34,817 bases of DNA, taken from assembly GCA_020072765.1 (NCBI GenBank), contig JAIQGD010000034.1, forward strand, positions 1-34,817, given 5' to 3'. Position 1 is the stretch's first letter. Each line of letters begins with the position of its first letter. The DNA is from Terriglobia bacterium (GTDB lineage Bacteria > Acidobacteriota > Terriglobia > Acidiferrales > UBA7541). Positions 123-14,242 of the stretch are shown here, piece after piece. The notes beneath the pieces were generated by a model, which worked only from the letters and a program-made list of their open reading frames with translations, made no database searches and had not been told where the DNA came from. Both the position numbers and the translations under genes were made by a program.

Positions 123-1364
123 ATGGCTCGCTCGAACACCCTCGCGGCCCGCCGCGACTTTCTCAAGTTTCTGGCCGCCAGCCCCTATGTCGCCGCGCTT
201 GGCGGCGTCGCTGCCTTCCTTCCGGAAGGCGTCCTCGCCCAGAACCCCCCGGATTCCTCCGGCGTCATCACCGACCCGGCCCAGGCCTTCGCCGTCTTCG
301 ATTTCGAGGAAGCCGCTCACCGCAAGGTCCCGGCCGGCCACTGGGCCTACATGGCCAGTGGAGTCGACGACGACGCCACCCTGCGCGCCAATCGCGAAGC
401 GTTCCAGCACGTCCAGTTGCGCCCGCGCCGCCTGCGCGACGCCACCCACGTCGACATGCGCGTCGAGCTGTTCGGCACCGTCTACAACAGCCCGATCTTC
501 CTGTGCCCGACGGGCGGCGAACGATCGTTCCATCCCGGCGGAGAATTGGCCGTGGCCCGCGCCGCTCAAGCCCGCGGCACGCTGCAGATCCTCTCCACCA
601 TGACCTCGACCCCGGTCGAAGAGGTCAACCAGGCCCTCGGCCGCCCGACGTGGTATCAGCTCTACGCACCCGACTCCTGGGACGTCTGCGAGAAACTGCT
701 GCGGCGCGTGGAAGCCTCCGGATGCTCCGTGATCGCCCTCACCGTCGACGTCACCACCGGCCGCAACCTGGAAACCTACTCGCGCACTCGCCCCAAGGAC
801 CTGCACCAGTGCGCCGCCTGCCACGATAGCGAGCCGGGCCGGTCGGCCAAAGAGCACCCCATGTACGACGGCATCAACATGACCGGCGTGAACTCGGTGA
901 ATCCCGCCATGGACTGGGCGTTCGTCGACCGCCTGCGCAAATTCTGGCGGGGAACACTCCTCCTCAAGGGGATCGACACCCGCGAGGACGCCCGTCTGTG
1001 CGTCGAGCACGGCCTGGACGGCATTCTCGTCTCCAACCACGGCGGGCGCGCCACCGAAACCGCGCGGGCGACCCTCGAGGCTCTGCCCGAAATCGTCGAC
1101 GAAGTCCGCAACCGCCTTCCCGTCCTGGTCGATAGCGGCTTTCGCCGCGGCACCGATGTCTTCAAAGCCCTGGCGTTGGGCGCCAAGGCTGTCGGAATCG
1201 GTCGCCCCTTCCTGTGGGGGTTGGGCGCGTTTGGCCAGGCCGGCGTGGACCGCGTGATCGACATTCTTCAGGGCGAGCTGCATTTGGCGATGGCCAATTG
1301 CGGCACGCGCACCCTCGCCGAGATCACCCGCGCCTACGTCGCCACACCCGATTGGAAACTCTAG
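123..1364 (+). CDS. exported FMN-dependent alpha-hydroxy-acid oxidase/dehydrogenase with CXXCH motif
   Basis: This 413-aa protein belongs to the family of glycolate oxidase, lactate oxidase and flavocytochrome b2, which use FMN to oxidise L-2-hydroxy acids to 2-oxo acids. The N-terminus carries RRDFLKF and a hydrophobic stretch to about residue 40, consistent with a Tat-type signal, so it probably acts outside the cytoplasm. The FMN/active-site landmarks are present: WYQLYAP near 177, LLKGI with Lys282, SNHGGR at 304-309 (catalytic His306, Arg309), and DSGFRRGTDVFKALALGAKAVGIGRP at the C-terminal phosphate-binding end, given here in two parts: DSGFRRGTDVF and KALALGAKAVGIGRP. Unusually, the loop between TVDV (207-210) and LLKGI contains CAACH at 230-234, a c-type heme-like motif. 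The substrate cannot be read from sequence. It stands alone, with the next gene convergent. Confidence 0.88.
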   Translation: MARSNTLAARRDFLKFLAASPYVAALGGVAAFLPEGVLAQNPPDSSGVITDPAQAFAVFDFEEAAHRKVPAGHWAYMASGVDDDATLRANREAFQHVQLRPRRLRDATHVDMRVELFGTVYNSPIFLCPTGGERSFHPGGELAVARAAQARGTLQILSTMTSTPVEEVNQALGRPTWYQLYAPDSWDVCEKLLRRVEASGCSVIALTVDVTTGRNLETYSRTRPKDLHQCAACHDSEPGRSAKEHPMYDGINMTGVNSVNPAMDWAFVDRLRKFWRGTLLLKGIDTREDARLCVEHGLDGILVSNHGGRATETARATLEALPEIVDEVRNRLPVLVDSGFRRGTDVFKALALGAKAVGIGRPFLWGLGAFGQAGVDRVIDILQGELHLAMANCGTRTLAEITRAYVATPDWKL

Positions 1365-1423: not shown

Positions 1424-3709
1424 TTATCGCGGCGCGTCGGGTGCGGAACCGGCCGAGGCTGCCGGCGCGGACGCGGACGCGGACTGTTCCAGGGCGAGAT
1501 AGGCGCGGCCAAAAGCGGATTGCTGCGTTCCGGCGGCGATGGCGACCGCTTGCACCGTGTATCGTCCGGCGGGCAGCTTGGTCAGCGGCAGGCTGATGCG
1601 AAACGACGCGCTGCGCGCCTTCGCATCGCTCTCCGTCGGCGCCAGCAGCGGCGTCGCATTCACCTGCACGCCCCCGCGGAAAAACACCAGAGCGGCGCGC
1701 ATCGCGCCGGCGTCGAACGACCCCGACTTCTCGGGAGCGTAGGCCTGAAAGAACACGTAGAGCGTCTGCTGCGGCGTGAAAAATCGCGTCACGCTCGGGA
1801 CGATTTTCTCTCCCCCCATTTCCAGCGGCGACGCGGCGATCGGGGCGCGCACGCCCTGCACCTTCGTCTCCACCTCGGATGACTTCTCCACCGGCACCAG
1901 CTGGCTCGACAACAGCACCGAGCTGAGCGTCATCCGCGCCGCCGCCCGCGCCGGGATGATAAGCGGCTGCTCAAAGGTCCCGATCTTCCCGGACTCGTTT
2001 TCCCGCGCCAGGAATTTCAGCCGGTACGTTCCCGGCGCGAGCACCACGCCTCCCTGGTAGACCAGGTTGCTCCGGCGCACCTGCGCGAAGCGCTGCTCGT
2101 CCAGACGCACGCGGACCGTGTCGCGCAGCTCCGCCACGGTCTTCCCGGAGGGCGCGGCGCGTACTTCCGCCGCAAAGTCGAACTCCGCCTCGCGCCGGCC
2201 GTGCTTCTGCGCCCAATCCAGCGCGCTCGACGAAAGCTTCGCGGAGATCGGAACGTACACCTGCTGATCGCCCAAGCGGAACATCGCCGTCTCGACCGCG
2301 ATCGGGAGATCGACCTCGGGACGTTCCGATCGCATGGCCTCGGCCAGCTGCTGCTCGCGGTCTTCCCTCTGGAGGTGCTGAAAGTCGCGCGGCGCGTAAT
2401 AGCCGTTGCGATAGCGAACGTGCGCGCCCGGCACGTTGACCTTCACCGTCACGGCGCGCCAGCGCCCGTCGCGCTTCACGTCGGGCGGCAAATTGTAGCC
2501 CACCAGGTAGTAGCCCGTGTTGTCTTCCTGGATTTTCGGAAACGCGTCGCTCAGATCGCCCAAATCGAAGAACGCCCGCCCGCCGGTATCGGTCGCAAGC
2601 GTTGTTAACGTGTCGCGCGAGTCCTCCCGCTGATCGCTCTGGTGATACACCGACGCGCCGCTGAACAGCGACGTGCCGCTGGCCGCCGCCGTGGTGGCGT
2701 CGCCCCCCGGCGGCGCGGCAAACATCCCGCGCGCGTCGATCGAATAGACGGAGACGTTGGCGCGATTGGCGGCATCCGTGGCGGCGCGCAGCTCCGCGCG
2801 GTTCTCCTCGCCCGTCTGCGTGATTCCGCCCGTGAATTCGACCACGGCCTTGCGTCCCGGAATTCCCGCCAGGACGTTCGCGAGATCCTCAAGCGCGATC
2901 AGCTTCTGGTCCGTATTGAACACGTTGAACTCGGTCTCGTCGGGCGTGTAGGCGGCGCCCAGGTCTTGCTGCACGTCGGCTTCGCCGTTCTGCGCCGCGG
3001 CGTACAGCGGAGTGGCAAGCTGCGATGCCGCGCCCGGCACCACCTGCGCCACGGCCTTGCTGAGCGCCGCGCGATCGTTCGTGAAATTCGCGAGCACGGA
3101 AAGGCGCGTGCTGAACACCACGACGGCGACCAAGTCGGCCGGGCTCATCTGCTGCTTCAGGAATTTCACCGCGGCGTCGTGCGCGCGGAGGATGTCGTCG
3201 GTCTCCATCGACGTCAGATCGAAGAACAGCACGATCATCCGGCGGTCGTGAACCTGTTCGGCGGCCTCGGCCGCTCCCGGCCCTGCCGTATCGACTGGCA
3301 CAACGACCGGCTTGGCATCCAGCGCTCCAGCGATCTCCACTTTCTCGATATCCGCATAGGAAAACGCCGTGATGTGCTGCGCTTTGCCGTCATCGCTGAT
3401 CGTGAACTGTTCCGGCTTCAATCCCCGAATCGCTTTCCCACTGCGGTCGGTAACCTCCACATCGATGCGCACAACGCTCGTTTGCGCGCGCAGGGCGCCG
3501 GACGCTTGCGGAGGAAGCGGCTGCGGATTCTGCGGTAAGGGAGCCTGCAAAGCCGCAGGGGATGACGCTTCTTGCGCGAACGTGGCGATGGGCGTGGCAA
3601 TAGGCGCCGCGATCAGTCCGGCAACAAGCCAGAAGGACACCACGGCGCGAAGAAAGGAACACCGCGCCATTCCCGTCGAGCCTTCCTTCCGGCTTTGTAC
3701 CAAAGTCAT
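1424..3709 (-). CDS. secreted VWA-domain protein (Acidobacteria-type)
   Basis: The 761-aa product has a signal peptide (hydrophobic 20-45, cleavage near TFAQ), a Pro-rich linker, and a beta-rich segment at about 77-120 (VVRIDVEVTDRSGK, then GLKPEQFTISDDGK). A von Willebrand factor A domain then spans about 157-400. This architecture matches the VWFA-related proteins expanded in Acidobacteriota, whose function is unknown. The metal site that is normally DxSxS appears as DLTSM at 164-168, so the metal-dependent adhesion site is degenerate. The C-terminal third is beta-rich and unassigned. ATG 3709 has a GGGAG 7-8 nt upstream. A second ATG at 3670 also has a good AAGGAAGG and gives a shorter signal peptide, so the start is uncertain. 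It lies 24 bp downstream of the receptor gene and is probably cotranscribed with it. Confidence 0.85.
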   Translation of the reverse strand: MTLVQSRKEGSTGMARCSFLRAVVSFWLVAGLIAAPIATPIATFAQEASSPAALQAPLPQNPQPLPPQASGALRAQTSVVRIDVEVTDRSGKAIRGLKPEQFTISDDGKAQHITAFSYADIEKVEIAGALDAKPVVVPVDTAGPGAAEAAEQVHDRRMIVLFFDLTSMETDDILRAHDAAVKFLKQQMSPADLVAVVVFSTRLSVLANFTNDRAALSKAVAQVVPGAASQLATPLYAAAQNGEADVQQDLGAAYTPDETEFNVFNTDQKLIALEDLANVLAGIPGRKAVVEFTGGITQTGEENRAELRAATDAANRANVSVYSIDARGMFAAPPGGDATTAAASGTSLFSGASVYHQSDQREDSRDTLTTLATDTGGRAFFDLGDLSDAFPKIQEDNTGYYLVGYNLPPDVKRDGRWRAVTVKVNVPGAHVRYRNGYYAPRDFQHLQREDREQQLAEAMRSERPEVDLPIAVETAMFRLGDQQVYVPISAKLSSSALDWAQKHGRREAEFDFAAEVRAAPSGKTVAELRDTVRVRLDEQRFAQVRRSNLVYQGGVVLAPGTYRLKFLARENESGKIGTFEQPLIIPARAAARMTLSSVLLSSQLVPVEKSSEVETKVQGVRAPIAASPLEMGGEKIVPSVTRFFTPQQTLYVFFQAYAPEKSGSFDAGAMRAALVFFRGGVQVNATPLLAPTESDAKARSASFRISLPLTKLPAGRYTVQAVAIAAGTQQSAFGRAYLALEQSASASAPAASAGSAPDAPR

Positions 3710-7642: not shown

Positions 7643-7783
7643 TGGAAACTTCTCTCTCCCAAGCCTGGGCATGTCGGCTACAGATTGGCTTCCCTGTGGG
7701 ACCGAGCCTGTGGCATGATCGACCCGGCCCGCGCGGCCAGCACGAAGACGGTCGCAAGCAGGCACGGAGACGGAGGAGTGTTC

Positions 7784-8971
7784 ATGAAGAAGCGGACGGC
7801 AGTGAGTTTTTTCTTGTCGCGCAATCTGGGCGTCATCAAGCGGACGGCAGTGAGTTTTTTCTTGTCGCGCAATCTGGGCGTCATCGTTGTGGCGGGTGCT
7901 ATTGCGATCGCGTTGGCAGCCGGCTCGTGGGCCGGCGCGCAGAAGACCGCAGCGGCCGGCAAGGAAGGCAAAGTTCTCGGCATCGCCTTCGACGGCCACC
8001 AGGTCTCGAACCTCGACCAGTCCATCAAATACTACGAAGCGATCGACTTTCACTTGTCCGGCAAGCCCACTGATTGGGCCGTCGATAAAGTCGTCAACCA
8101 GTTGGGCGGCACCAAGGGCGCGGAATCCCGTACCGCCATCATGACCATTCAGAGCTCCGTTTCCGATAAGCCCTTCTCGCTGATCCTGCGCGAATACCGC
8201 GGCATCGACCGCAAGAATTGGAGCGGGCTCTCCTCCTCCGACCTTCTCTCGGGTCACATGGATCTGACCGTGCAAGACGACTGCACCCCGTCGATGGACA
8301 AGCTCAAGGCCATCAATATGCTCAAGATGCCCCCCATGAATCTTCCCGGCGGAGCCGCTGCCCCCACTGGGCCGCGCCGCTTCGTCTTCGTGCAGGATCC
8401 CGATGGCTGGTTCATTGAATTGTTCGCCATCATGCCGCCGCCTCCGGGCGCGCCTCCCGAAGGACCCAAAGTTTCCAATTCCACCGCGACCAACGCCAAC
8501 ATCGACCGGCTCGGCAAACAGACCGGCTTCAACCACATCGGCTTGAACGTGGTCGATCCGAAGAAGGCCCTCGCGTTTTACCAGGACGTCCTGGGCGGAG
8601 ACTACCCGCCCCTGGCCCCCCCGCCGGCCGCACCGGCCGCCGCACCGCCCGCCGGCGCCGCCCCGCGCATGAACATGATGAACGGCTGGTTTCCGCAAGC
8701 CACCACCAACGGAAACGTGCGCCTCGAGTTGATCGCCTTCCCGCAGCCGCCGGGTAAACAACAGCCCCCCGACGAGCACTTTGCCGATGTCGCCGTCAAC
8801 TATGTCGGCTTTCAGGTGACTGATATCGACGCGGTGTACGCCAAAGCCAAGGCCGCTGGCGCCATCACCGTGTCCGAGGGCGGCATCGTGAAGGTCAAGG
8901 ACGGCCGCGCCGTCATCCTGCGCGACCCCGACGTCGGCGGATTCGTCGAACTGTGGGAGCCGTCGAAGTAG
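7784..8971 (+). CDS. exported protein with two VOC (glyoxalase-fold) domains
   Basis: Translation from ATG 7784, preceded by GGAGACGGAGGAG, gives 395 aa. The open frame extends 5' to 7685, but this ATG has the ribosome binding site and starts the signal region. The N-terminus is a signal/anchor whose 16-residue unit KRTAVSFFLSRNLGVI occurs twice in tandem, followed by the hydrophobic stretch VVAGAIAIALAAG. Two vicinal-oxygen-chelate domains follow: about 65-215 (GHQVSNLDQSIKYYE ... DPDGWFIEL) and about 247-392 (NHIGLNVVDPKKALAFYQ ... DPDVGGFVEL). The His and Glu residues typical of metal ligands are present in each half (His72/Glu212 and His251/Glu389). VOC enzymes include glyoxalases, dioxygenases and resistance proteins, so the reaction cannot be assigned. 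An Ala/Pro-rich insert (about 276-294) interrupts the second domain. Confidence 0.82.
   Translation: MKKRTAVSFFLSRNLGVIKRTAVSFFLSRNLGVIVVAGAIAIALAAGSWAGAQKTAAAGKEGKVLGIAFDGHQVSNLDQSIKYYEAIDFHLSGKPTDWAVDKVVNQLGGTKGAESRTAIMTIQSSVSDKPFSLILREYRGIDRKNWSGLSSSDLLSGHMDLTVQDDCTPSMDKLKAINMLKMPPMNLPGGAAAPTGPRRFVFVQDPDGWFIELFAIMPPPPGAPPEGPKVSNSTATNANIDRLGKQTGFNHIGLNVVDPKKALAFYQDVLGGDYPPLAPPPAAPAAAPPAGAAPRMNMMNGWFPQATTNGNVRLELIAFPQPPGKQQPPDEHFADVAVNYVGFQVTDIDAVYAKAKAAGAITVSEGGIVKVKDGRAVILRDPDVGGFVELWEPSK
7790..7885 (+). repeat. exact 48-bp tandem duplication in the VOC signal region
   Basis: Positions 7790-7837 and 7838-7885 are identical over 48 bp and in frame, encoding the same 16 residues twice. Perfect identity implies a very recent duplication, or an assembly or sequencing artefact. 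Confidence 0.95.
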
Positions 8972-10728: not shown

Positions 10729-11712
10729 CTATCCCTTCATCCCGCGCTGCCACAGCGCGCACAAGGCGGTGTTGTAGAGCGCCAGCGCGGTCGTAATCTG
10801 CCCCAGATGATTGTCGTGGGTCGATAGATAGGCCGCTTTGTGTAGCACGTCCGCATGCAAGTTTCCTTCGGTGGAACAGTCGATGATCACGGCGCCGTCT
10901 TTCACGTTGCGCACCAAGTCCGCCTCGGACTGCGCCGGGAATGCCGTCACGATGATGTCCGCGGTCTGGAGATACGCTTCCCGGTCTTCCGGCCGGGTCT
11001 GCGGATGGATCATGAGCGCGGTGGCCCCGATCCGCATCAGCATGCTTTGCAGCGGAATGCCGATGCGCGGCGAGCTATTGCAGATCGCCACCGTCGGACC
11101 GCTTTGCCGGGCCTCGCGCGGAAACATGTTCTTGATCTCCCCGTGCTGGTGCAGCAGAGTGAGGATCGCTTTTGCCGTGCAGGGCACCACGCCTTCGTAC
11201 TTCTCTTCTTCGTCGACCGTCTTGATGTTCAGCGCCATGCGGCCGGTGTTCTCGACCGTGAGCCCTTCGATGTCCTTCTCCGGCCGCACCCGCCGTAGAA
11301 AATAATCCTCGGTCTTGCCGAACGGCGCCGGGAAGAAGATAAATGTCCCGTAGATCTTGTCGTGGACTTGCGCGCCCATCAGAAGCAGTTCCAGGGCGTC
11401 GGCGCTGTGCGCTTCCTCAACGCGAAAATCCAGGCCGCGCCGCCGGAACTGCTTTCCCATATAGCTGGCGTACCGCCGGGAGCCTCGGTCGACTTCCACG
11501 TTCGGCAGCCGCGGCATAAACGCCGCGACGCGGATCTCCCCCCGGTCGAGGCCGGTCTCCTCGACCTGCGCCAGTTTCTGTTCCGCCTGAGCAAACACTT
11601 CCTCGGCCGCTGCAATGCAGTTCAATCGCTTGCTCGGCGGAACTTGCTGTGTCCAGCTCATGTCAGGCGCGAACGAACTTTTTCGCGCCTGCGGCATGTT
11701 CAGTGTGCCCAT
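10729..11712 (-). CDS. FolD-family methylenetetrahydrofolate dehydrogenase, Mtd1-like
   Basis: This 327-aa protein has the FolD two-domain layout: a catalytic domain to about 180 and a Rossmann domain at about 200-295. PEKDIEG (144-150) matches the family's PxKDVDG with its Asp. VVPCTAKAI (176-184) matches the PCTPxG segment, and CNSSPRIGIP (211-220) stands where GRSxxVGxP is usual. Bifunctional FolD enzymes carry Y-x3-K for cyclohydrolase chemistry; here the aligned segment is YASYMGK (81-87), with Met85 in the Lys position. The Gln of VQLPLP is replaced (FIFFPAP, 124-130). Both traits, and the segment FFPAPFGKTEDYFLR, resemble the yeast NAD-dependent monofunctional dehydrogenase Mtd1. I infer oxidation of methylene-THF without hydrolysis of methenyl-THF. 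It lies 25 bp upstream of the VOC gene on the same strand and may be cotranscribed with it. Confidence 0.78.
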   Translation of the reverse strand: MGTLNMPQARKSSFAPDMSWTQQVPPSKRLNCIAAAEEVFAQAEQKLAQVEETGLDRGEIRVAAFMPRLPNVEVDRGSRRYASYMGKQFRRRGLDFRVEEAHSADALELLLMGAQVHDKIYGTFIFFPAPFGKTEDYFLRRVRPEKDIEGLTVENTGRMALNIKTVDEEEKYEGVVPCTAKAILTLLHQHGEIKNMFPREARQSGPTVAICNSSPRIGIPLQSMLMRIGATALMIHPQTRPEDREAYLQTADIIVTAFPAQSEADLVRNVKDGAVIIDCSTEGNLHADVLHKAAYLSTHDNHLGQITTALALYNTALCALWQRGMKG

Positions 11713-12973: not shown

Positions 12974-14242
12974 CTAAACCTTCCGAAAGTTTTCTCGCCA
13001 TTCAGAGATGTGACCATCCTGCGGGGGTGAGGCGAAGACACCTGGTGGCTGTGGAAATCTCGCCTTTTCGTTTCGAATCATAACGCGGGCCATCAGACGC
13101 AATAAGCTGATCCAACGCGCGAGTTCTACGCGGTGACTTTGCGTGTCCGGTGAGAGGCTTAAGTCGCCGCCGGGTGCGCTAAGCATGTGGGCAACCTTGT
13201 TTCTAATTTCTTCGAGCCTCTCCTGCCTAATTCGATTAAATCTCCAACCGAGGACCTCTGCCGGAGCCACATGGTCCCAGCGCTCATCGTTTACCCCAGC
13301 GGGGTCCAGCAACGGAAACACTTCGCTGACGAACTTACGCAATTCTTCCTTAGTGTCCGGAAGCAATTCAGGAAACCTGAGTCTGAAGCGTGCCCTGGCA
13401 GTGGTATCCGACAACTCCTCAGTGCGTTTCCAAGTGATTCCTTCCAGTACCTTATACCAGCACAAGAACTGGTAGTTGATGCTGTTGCTGTTAATCCCTT
13501 CACGATAGAGGGACAGCAGTGACTGGACATAGGAAAGGTTGCTGAGATCGGTCCCCGCCGATGTCAAATGCACGTCTGGATACGGACAGGCATACGTCAT
13601 CGACGCGTTTTGAGTTGTCGTCTGCTCAATATTCAGTTGGCCTAGCCGAACCGGAACATCAAGTTCAAACGCCAGCGTACTGAAGAAACTACTTGCGGCG
13701 CCAAACGCGATTCGGTCAGCTTCGGTAAAGCTGGCCGCGTTCAACTCCACTACACACTGTGCGAGGCGCCCCTCTTTATTCGGAATTCCTTGCATCTCGA
13801 TCTTCTCTACGCCGGTCGAAGTCGTGTGAGAGGAGAAAACCACCAACCTATCTGGATCTTCCGGCCTCCTCTCAGTCTCGGGTCTCACTATTTGAACAAA
13901 TGAGTCTCCCGTCCCCTTGAAATCCAGATTCTGTTTGTCGAGCGGATGTCGGCTCAGCGTGAAAACGACCCGGTACTTGTCCGGCCGGTCTTGAAATGGT
14001 GACTGAGGATCTTCTCCCTTCCTGACATTGCGCACCCACATCTGATACGAGCCTCCAGGGATGCCCAAGACGTCACGCGGTATTTCTGTATTGAAAGTAC
14101 CCGGAGAAGGGGCCGCGTTCTCCTTTAGGGGTTGTTGAAGTTGCGATGGAGCGGCATTCACGTGTTGTCCATACTGCCCATGGCATTGCTTATATTTGCG
14201 ACCACTGCCGCAAGGGCATCTTTCATTCCGACCTATCTTCAT
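12974..14242 (-). CDS. SEC-C motif protein with HEPN-like C-terminal region (MauJ-like)
   Basis: This 422-aa protein begins with a SEC-C zinc-binding motif (CPCGSGRKYKQCH, residues 9-21). A linker and a mixed alpha/beta region (about 60-235) follow, then an alpha-helical C-terminal region (about 237-395) with YREGINSNSINYQFLCWYKVLE split across 246-267. That region ends in EEIRNKVAHML, where R347-x4-H352 fits the Rx4-6H signature of HEPN RNases. Similar C-terminal regions are annotated in databases as methylamine-utilisation MauJ, but no methylamine genes are nearby. The gene is visibly less GC-rich than its neighbours, suggesting transfer. Its start lies about 19 bp from repeat copy 2, and a tRNA-Arg follows within 380 bp upstream. 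HEPN assignment and any RNase or defence role are inference. Confidence 0.75.
   Translation of the reverse strand: MKIGRNERCPCGSGRKYKQCHGQYGQHVNAAPSQLQQPLKENAAPSPGTFNTEIPRDVLGIPGGSYQMWVRNVRKGEDPQSPFQDRPDKYRVVFTLSRHPLDKQNLDFKGTGDSFVQIVRPETERRPEDPDRLVVFSSHTTSTGVEKIEMQGIPNKEGRLAQCVVELNAASFTEADRIAFGAASSFFSTLAFELDVPVRLGQLNIEQTTTQNASMTYACPYPDVHLTSAGTDLSNLSYVQSLLSLYREGINSNSINYQFLCWYKVLEGITWKRTEELSDTTARARFRLRFPELLPDTKEELRKFVSEVFPLLDPAGVNDERWDHVAPAEVLGWRFNRIRQERLEEIRNKVAHMLSAPGGDLSLSPDTQSHRVELARWISLLRLMARVMIRNEKARFPQPPGVFASPPQDGHISEWRENFRKV

Follow-up and report, generated by a model that had tools for sequence, protein, structure and literature searches.

The window, by which we mean the whole analysed stretch of 34,817 nucleotides, carries near its start a forward-strand gene for an FMN-dependent alpha-hydroxy-acid oxidoreductase (the window enzyme), in which the following features were located.

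123..1364, + strand: open reading frame of the FMN-dependent alpha-hydroxy-acid oxidoreductase with CXXCH, 413 amino acids plus stop (FMN_dh match)
123..242, + strand: Tat-type signal peptide region, residues 1-40, ARRDFLKFLAASPYVAALGG..., with the twin arginine codons at 150-155 (sequence and homologues)
339..341, + strand: His73, candidate distal heme ligand, at the position of Ala140 in flavocytochrome b2 (alignment)
348..350, + strand: Tyr76, active-site tyrosine (glycolate oxidase Tyr24, flavocytochrome b2 Tyr143), Tyr in 91/95 CXXCH members
747..749, + strand: Asp209, catalytic (glycolate oxidase Asp157), 95/95
759..908, + strand: lid segment, loop 4, residues 213-262, which houses the CXXCH (glycolate oxidase alignment)
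810..824, + strand: CAACH (Cys230, Cys233, His234), where heme c is predicted to be attached, with His234 as the putative proximal ligand (alignment)
966..968, + strand: Lys282, FMN-contacting family lysine (glycolate oxidase Lys230), 95/95
1038..1040, + strand: His306, catalytic base (glycolate oxidase His254), 95/95

The coding part of this frame runs from the ATG at 123 to 1361, and Pfam assigns the product to FMN_dh (PF01070) along its full length, with residues 65-407 matching profile positions 1-349 of 350 (E 1.2e-117). The enzyme scores far under the cut-offs of the NCBIfam models for LldD, lactate oxidase and MftD and therefore belongs to none of these three groups. Among solved structures it is closest in sequence to glycolate and lactate oxidases, and the best Foldseek matches were HAO1 and glycolate oxidases (TM by target about 0.9); the descriptions of the structures matched to it name no heme c protein. 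Orthologues in related genomes share 73-78% identity. One of them, 78% identical (L005, G022:C21:95352-96584), is interrupted at residue 318 by an in-frame TAG and is either a recent pseudogene or the product of a sequencing error.

Downstream of the enzyme, the reverse-strand gene at 1424-3709 encodes a protein of 761 residues with a signal-like N-terminus and no Pfam matches at 1e-5, which presumably resembles the VWFA-related proteins common in Acidobacteriota. Elsewhere in the window, a glyoxalase-domain protein (7685-8971) contains in its signal-like N-terminus a perfect 48-bp tandem duplication at 7790-7885, with repeats KRTAVSFFLSRNLGVI. The reverse-strand gene at 10729-11712 has only the C-terminal NAD-binding domain of methylene-tetrahydrofolate dehydrogenase (PF02882, residues 172-318), its product possibly being a lone FolD/MtdA-like reductase, and that at 12974-14242, also on the reverse strand, fuses a SEC-C motif (CPCGSGRKYKQCHG) to a MauJ-like domain, with no methylamine genes among the neighbours examined. 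At the loci of the enzyme that we examined, no conserved neighbour partner was found, with ORF calling crude enough for a weak association to escape. Nor did a cytochrome gene lie within two genes of the enzyme, save for one ORF at L179 with a single CXXCH, which may be a second tandem copy of the enzyme itself. Two genomes carry two CXXCH copies each: one pair lies adjacent in tandem at G820:C147:399352-401961 (L156, L172), while the copies of the other, on G025:C47 (L006, L026), are oppositely oriented and separated by about 16 kb.

The motif reported in the earlier note at 810-824 is genuine, as its codons (tgc gcc gcc tgc cac) are in frame with the ATG at 123 within the full-length FMN_dh frame and specify residues 230-234; alignment with glycolate oxidase likewise agrees with the placement given there, in the lid loop between TVDV (D209) and K282. 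Outside the motif, loop 4 varies in length among homologues, and it is modelled by AlphaFold2 with low confidence. The predicted window protein is a confident barrel (pLDDT 88.6) in which the CXXCH segment reaches only 51-64, while in a short-loop member (L058, pLDDT 87.4) the motif lies in a helical turn or short helix, residues 222-226, at about 70. Shuffling the enzyme's own residues produces a CXXCH in 0.27% of cases; since the motif is conserved in 95 aligned relatives and 25 Nitrobacteraceae sequences, a chance origin is excluded.

Homologues were gathered from related genomes, one plasmid and 84,980 species genomes, to which 396 genomes sampled evenly from the same phylum were added. 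The combined alignment held 134 sequences, 95 with CXXCH and 39 without, after L072 had been left out of the counts because of masked letters at the motif. Each of the 95 has a single CXXCH, always aligned at 230-234, and Cys230 and Cys233 are their sole invariant cysteines, despite pairwise identities as low as 37% and a spread over 20 clusters at 60% identity. In a sample from the Bradyrhizobium family (Nitrobacteraceae), which includes some loci already counted (e.g. L162, L048), both CXXCH and His73 were present in 25/25. The presence of the motif in the same loop throughout these sequences bears out the suggestion of a conserved subfamily. A literature search, with most subscription journals outside its coverage, found neither CXXCH nor heme c reported for the FMN_dh family, and neither a paper nor a solved structure was found for the CXXCH branch. 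The CXXCH enzymes, among them this one from a soil bacterium, are a widespread and apparently undescribed branch of the glycolate and lactate oxidase relatives.

The N-terminus of the window enzyme is a good Tat-type signal of the RRxFLK type, and a Tat-type signal was present in every one of the 92 CXXCH members that are complete at the N-terminus, export being predicted from the signal alone. Of these calls, 87 followed a mechanical rule and five were made by eye (L036, L038, L047, L080, L084), with three N-terminally cut-off members excluded. The signals follow the pattern [RK]R-x-[FLM]-[LIVM] and then a short hydrophobic stretch, typically SRRxFLKFLAASPLLA and more generally of the RRxFL[KR]FLAASP type; L075 has KR in place of the twin arginine, and in some members from Gemmatimonadota (L061, L065, L067) the signal closes with LPGC or IPGC, which is lipobox-like. 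The earlier note had proposed a test of whether motif and signal co-occur, and had named a lack of cysteine conservation among exported homologues as grounds for giving up its idea. The cysteines proved conserved and every judgeable CXXCH member carries a signal, yet the signal is not restricted to them: 15 of the 39 CXXCH-less relatives also have Tat-like signals, so export predates CXXCH and extends beyond its carriers. In one CXXCH sub-branch (L132, L133, L134, L135, L136, L137, L139, L091), about 50-70 extra residues separate the Tat signal from the barrel and contain a CxxCG pair (CPDCG, CADCG, CEICG, CRACG), which may be an additional site for a metal or for redox chemistry.

A second histidine accompanies the motif. 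His73, in the context PPAHFGYMASGVDDD, is found in 95/95 CXXCH members versus 3/39 other sequences of the combined alignment; the usual residues at this position in the latter group are Ala, Gly, Pro, Val or Ile. This pairing was first seen in one sequence set and held for the CXXCH members of two sets fetched later. The idea that His73 is exclusive to CXXCH members was weakened by the three exceptions (L140/L141 and L142), which come from two unrelated lineages. The only invariant histidines of the CXXCH members are H73, H234 and the catalytic H306, which together with the two motif cysteines is just enough for a bis-His heme c. Met247 was also considered as a distal ligand and rejected, since it was invariant in the first 14 sequences but is Met in only 69/95. 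Of the evidence from sequence, the His73-CXXCH pairing, absent from the earlier note, speaks most strongly for a bis-His heme as against a disulfide. In the alignment, His73 lies three residues N-terminal of Tyr76, the equivalent of flavocytochrome b2 Tyr143, which Xia and Mathews in 1990 reportedly found to face the heme domain at the flavin-heme domain contact; the His73/Tyr76 site would thus suit electron uptake from FMN to heme.

Besides the invariant catalytic residues, R309 (glycolate oxidase R257) and Y181 are each kept in 92/95 CXXCH members. The second substrate arginine of glycolate oxidase, Arg164, aligns with Leu216 of the window enzyme beside a gap that makes the alignment uncertain; with the same uncertainty, position 216 is R in 41/95 CXXCH members and otherwise T, Q or S. 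Because the catalytic residues are kept and the apparent Arg164 equivalent is not conserved, a 2-hydroxy acid is expected as the substrate, possibly anchored by its acid group in another way, and the substrate range may differ from that of glycolate oxidase; the neighbouring genes gave no hint of which acid it is. Three divergent paralogues with CXXCH and H73 (L027, L028, L030, from G034, G022 and G025), whose genomes also carry a close orthologue, have lost Tyr181 and have His in place of Arg309, which suggests other chemistry.

In trees from which the lid columns and column 73 had been left out, a single branch separates the CXXCH members from all other sequences, with support that was not strong (SH-aLRT 74 and 80); the branch joining the CXXCH members with the Tat-exported but CXXCH-less L095, L097 and L138 had a support of 100. 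H73 was gained on the same branch as CXXCH, and a single gain of both in a Tat-exported ancestor is the best reading of these trees. As both would have arisen once, their association represents one event followed by conservation, rather than many independent gains.

Going by record titles, CXXCH members were found in about nine phyla: Acidobacteriota, Pseudomonadota, Gemmatimonadota, Verrucomicrobiota, Planctomycetota, Myxococcota, Bacteroidota, Rokubacteria and one Chloroflexota MAG, with single MAGs possibly misbinned. Their spread is patchy, with the enzyme in 22/396 sampled Acidobacteriota genomes and 23/199 Bradyrhizobium-family genomes. No CXXCH member other than L053 was found in 274 genomes from the class of that gammaproteobacterial locus, and none besides the query locus in 200 genomes of the Polynucleobacter family. 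The viral contigs searched held no relatives of the window enzyme; the single CXXCH member from the plasmid search lies on a replicon of Methylobacterium bullatum whose record lacks annotation. Cultured carriers named in database titles include Bradyrhizobium lablabi, two Polynucleobacter species and Sandarakinorhabdus rubra.

The earlier note had also reasoned that the protein could meet the cytochrome c maturation machinery, and this remains sound: the host genome encodes CcmE and CcmF, and the window enzyme has a Tat-type signal. Among the first 61 genomes, CcmE was present in 10/10 that bear CXXCH and in 56/61 overall; since nearly all of this sample has it, CcmE permits heme without proving it. 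The heme-lyase core family PF01578 was found in 17/18 hosts picked across phyla, the lone negative being a MAG (G458, locus L042) that may be incomplete. Heme c is normally attached to unfolded, Sec-exported chains, and a folded, Tat-exported substrate is unusual. A precedent on paper comes from archaeal split-Soret cytochromes c, for which predicted Tat signals have been reported (PMC4429474). Bacterial CcsBA joins heme to CXXCH peptides of down to 11 residues, requiring both thiols and the histidine (PMC8112865), which makes the loop a plausible substrate for heme attachment.

Taken together, these data make it likely that the window enzyme is a periplasmic single-domain flavocytochrome c, in which a 2-hydroxy acid would be oxidised at FMN and the electrons passed on via a heme c in the lid. 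They would probably leave through this built-in heme and not by making hydrogen peroxide. We lean mildly towards the further proposal that the barrel gained its heme c through a lid CXXCH and a distal histidine on the barrel, without a cytochrome domain, and that the heme is attached after Tat export to a folded, FMN-loaded protein, which would make it a minimal flavocytochrome c of one domain. Under the favoured reading, the enzyme would fold around FMN in the cytoplasm and then be exported by Tat, after which the periplasmic Ccm machinery would attach heme to the exposed, flexible lid at Cys230 and Cys233, with His234 as the proximal and His73 as the distal iron ligand. Following oxidation of the 2-hydroxy acid at FMN, two electrons would exit singly via the heme beside the active site. 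Their acceptor would be a periplasmic one, such as a soluble cytochrome c, and not O2 or quinone.

Other uses of the same residues have to be weighed against this proposal. Cys230, Cys233, His234 and His73 are four invariant side chains that could form a C2H2 site, and they might bind a structural or redox metal (e.g. Zn or mononuclear iron) that clamps the lid, with no heme involved; Tat export fits such cofactor loading in the cytoplasm. We regard this as unlikely, however, as the neighbouring residues Cys233 and His234 are an uncommon pair on one metal, and the spacing in 95 sequences is strictly C-x-x-C-H, a requirement of cytochrome c synthases. A disulfide between Cys230 and Cys233 in the exported lid, structural or as a thiol switch, with the histidines serving substrate binding, appears more improbable still. 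CXXC pairs in the periplasm are readily oxidised by DsbA, and thiol oxidation there competes with heme attachment (PMC3420020). A disulfide, however, leaves unexplained both the absolute conservation of the CXXCH histidine and the presence of His73, which 36/39 CXXCH-less relatives with intact catalytic residues do without.

It is also conceivable, though we give it slightly less credence than the disulfide, that heme c is attached and does not act as a relay, the heme serving instead as a peroxidase-like centre or sensor, or that the barrel has a chemistry other than 2-hydroxy-acid oxidation. The variable position 216 and the paralogue branch that lacks Y181 and R309 are in keeping with this. 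Against it, D209, K282 and H306 are invariant, with R309, Y181 and Y76 nearly so, and an invariant histidine at both presumed axial positions fits electron transfer better than iron catalysis. Heme c is favoured overall because it alone explains together the exact C-x-x-C-H spacing, the invariant second histidine, the constant export signal and the retained flavin catalysis.

If this holds true, a textbook family usually seen as cytoplasmic or peroxisomal oxidases would include periplasmic enzymes that deliver electrons directly to respiration by way of their own heme. These would occur in Acidobacteriota, Bradyrhizobium relatives, Gemmatimonadota and others, in which the annotation of related genes goes no further than 'alpha-hydroxy-acid oxidizing protein'. 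A single loop and a single residue would then suffice to graft heme c to an enzyme. This would raise the question of how cytochrome c synthases deal with a substrate that Tat delivers folded, and compact direct-electron-transfer enzymes could be envisaged for lactate- or glycolate-type sensors. As cultured carriers exist, laboratory tests are feasible now.

Among known systems, glycolate oxidase, HAO1 and 4-hydroxymandelate oxidase share with the window enzyme the same fold and the same catalytic Asp, Lys and His, but they are O2-using oxidases, and the aligned glycolate oxidase has neither CXXCH nor His73. The family members (S)-mandelate dehydrogenase and LldD pass electrons not to O2 but to the membrane quinone, an acceptor to which their loop-4 segment or acceptor site is suited; the loop-4 insert there targets the cytoplasmic membrane and not a heme, and these enzymes are not known to have an export signal. 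Periplasmic transfer from flavin to heme c, with some parts Tat-exported, is also seen in flavocytochrome c (FccAB sulfide dehydrogenase) and in Tat-linked FAD dehydrogenases that have cytochrome c subunits. One of the latter is the FAD glucose dehydrogenase hitchhiker system (PMC6719666). These differ in having unrelated flavoprotein folds and the heme on a separate subunit or domain with a cytochrome c fold. There is also a likeness in logic to flavocytochrome b2, the yeast L-lactate:cytochrome c oxidoreductase, an alpha-hydroxy-acid dehydrogenase with an FMN barrel, to which the route proposed here, from FMN to heme to cytochrome c, corresponds. Flavocytochrome b2 is, however, mitochondrial and holds a non-covalent heme in a separate N-terminal cytochrome b5-like domain, whereas the window enzyme consists of a bacterial Tat signal and one barrel, with a c-type motif inside the lid loop. 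Pfam gave only FMN_dh and related barrel families for it, with no cytochrome b5-like domain found; the window enzyme is thus predicted to work like flavocytochrome b2 without being a member of that group.
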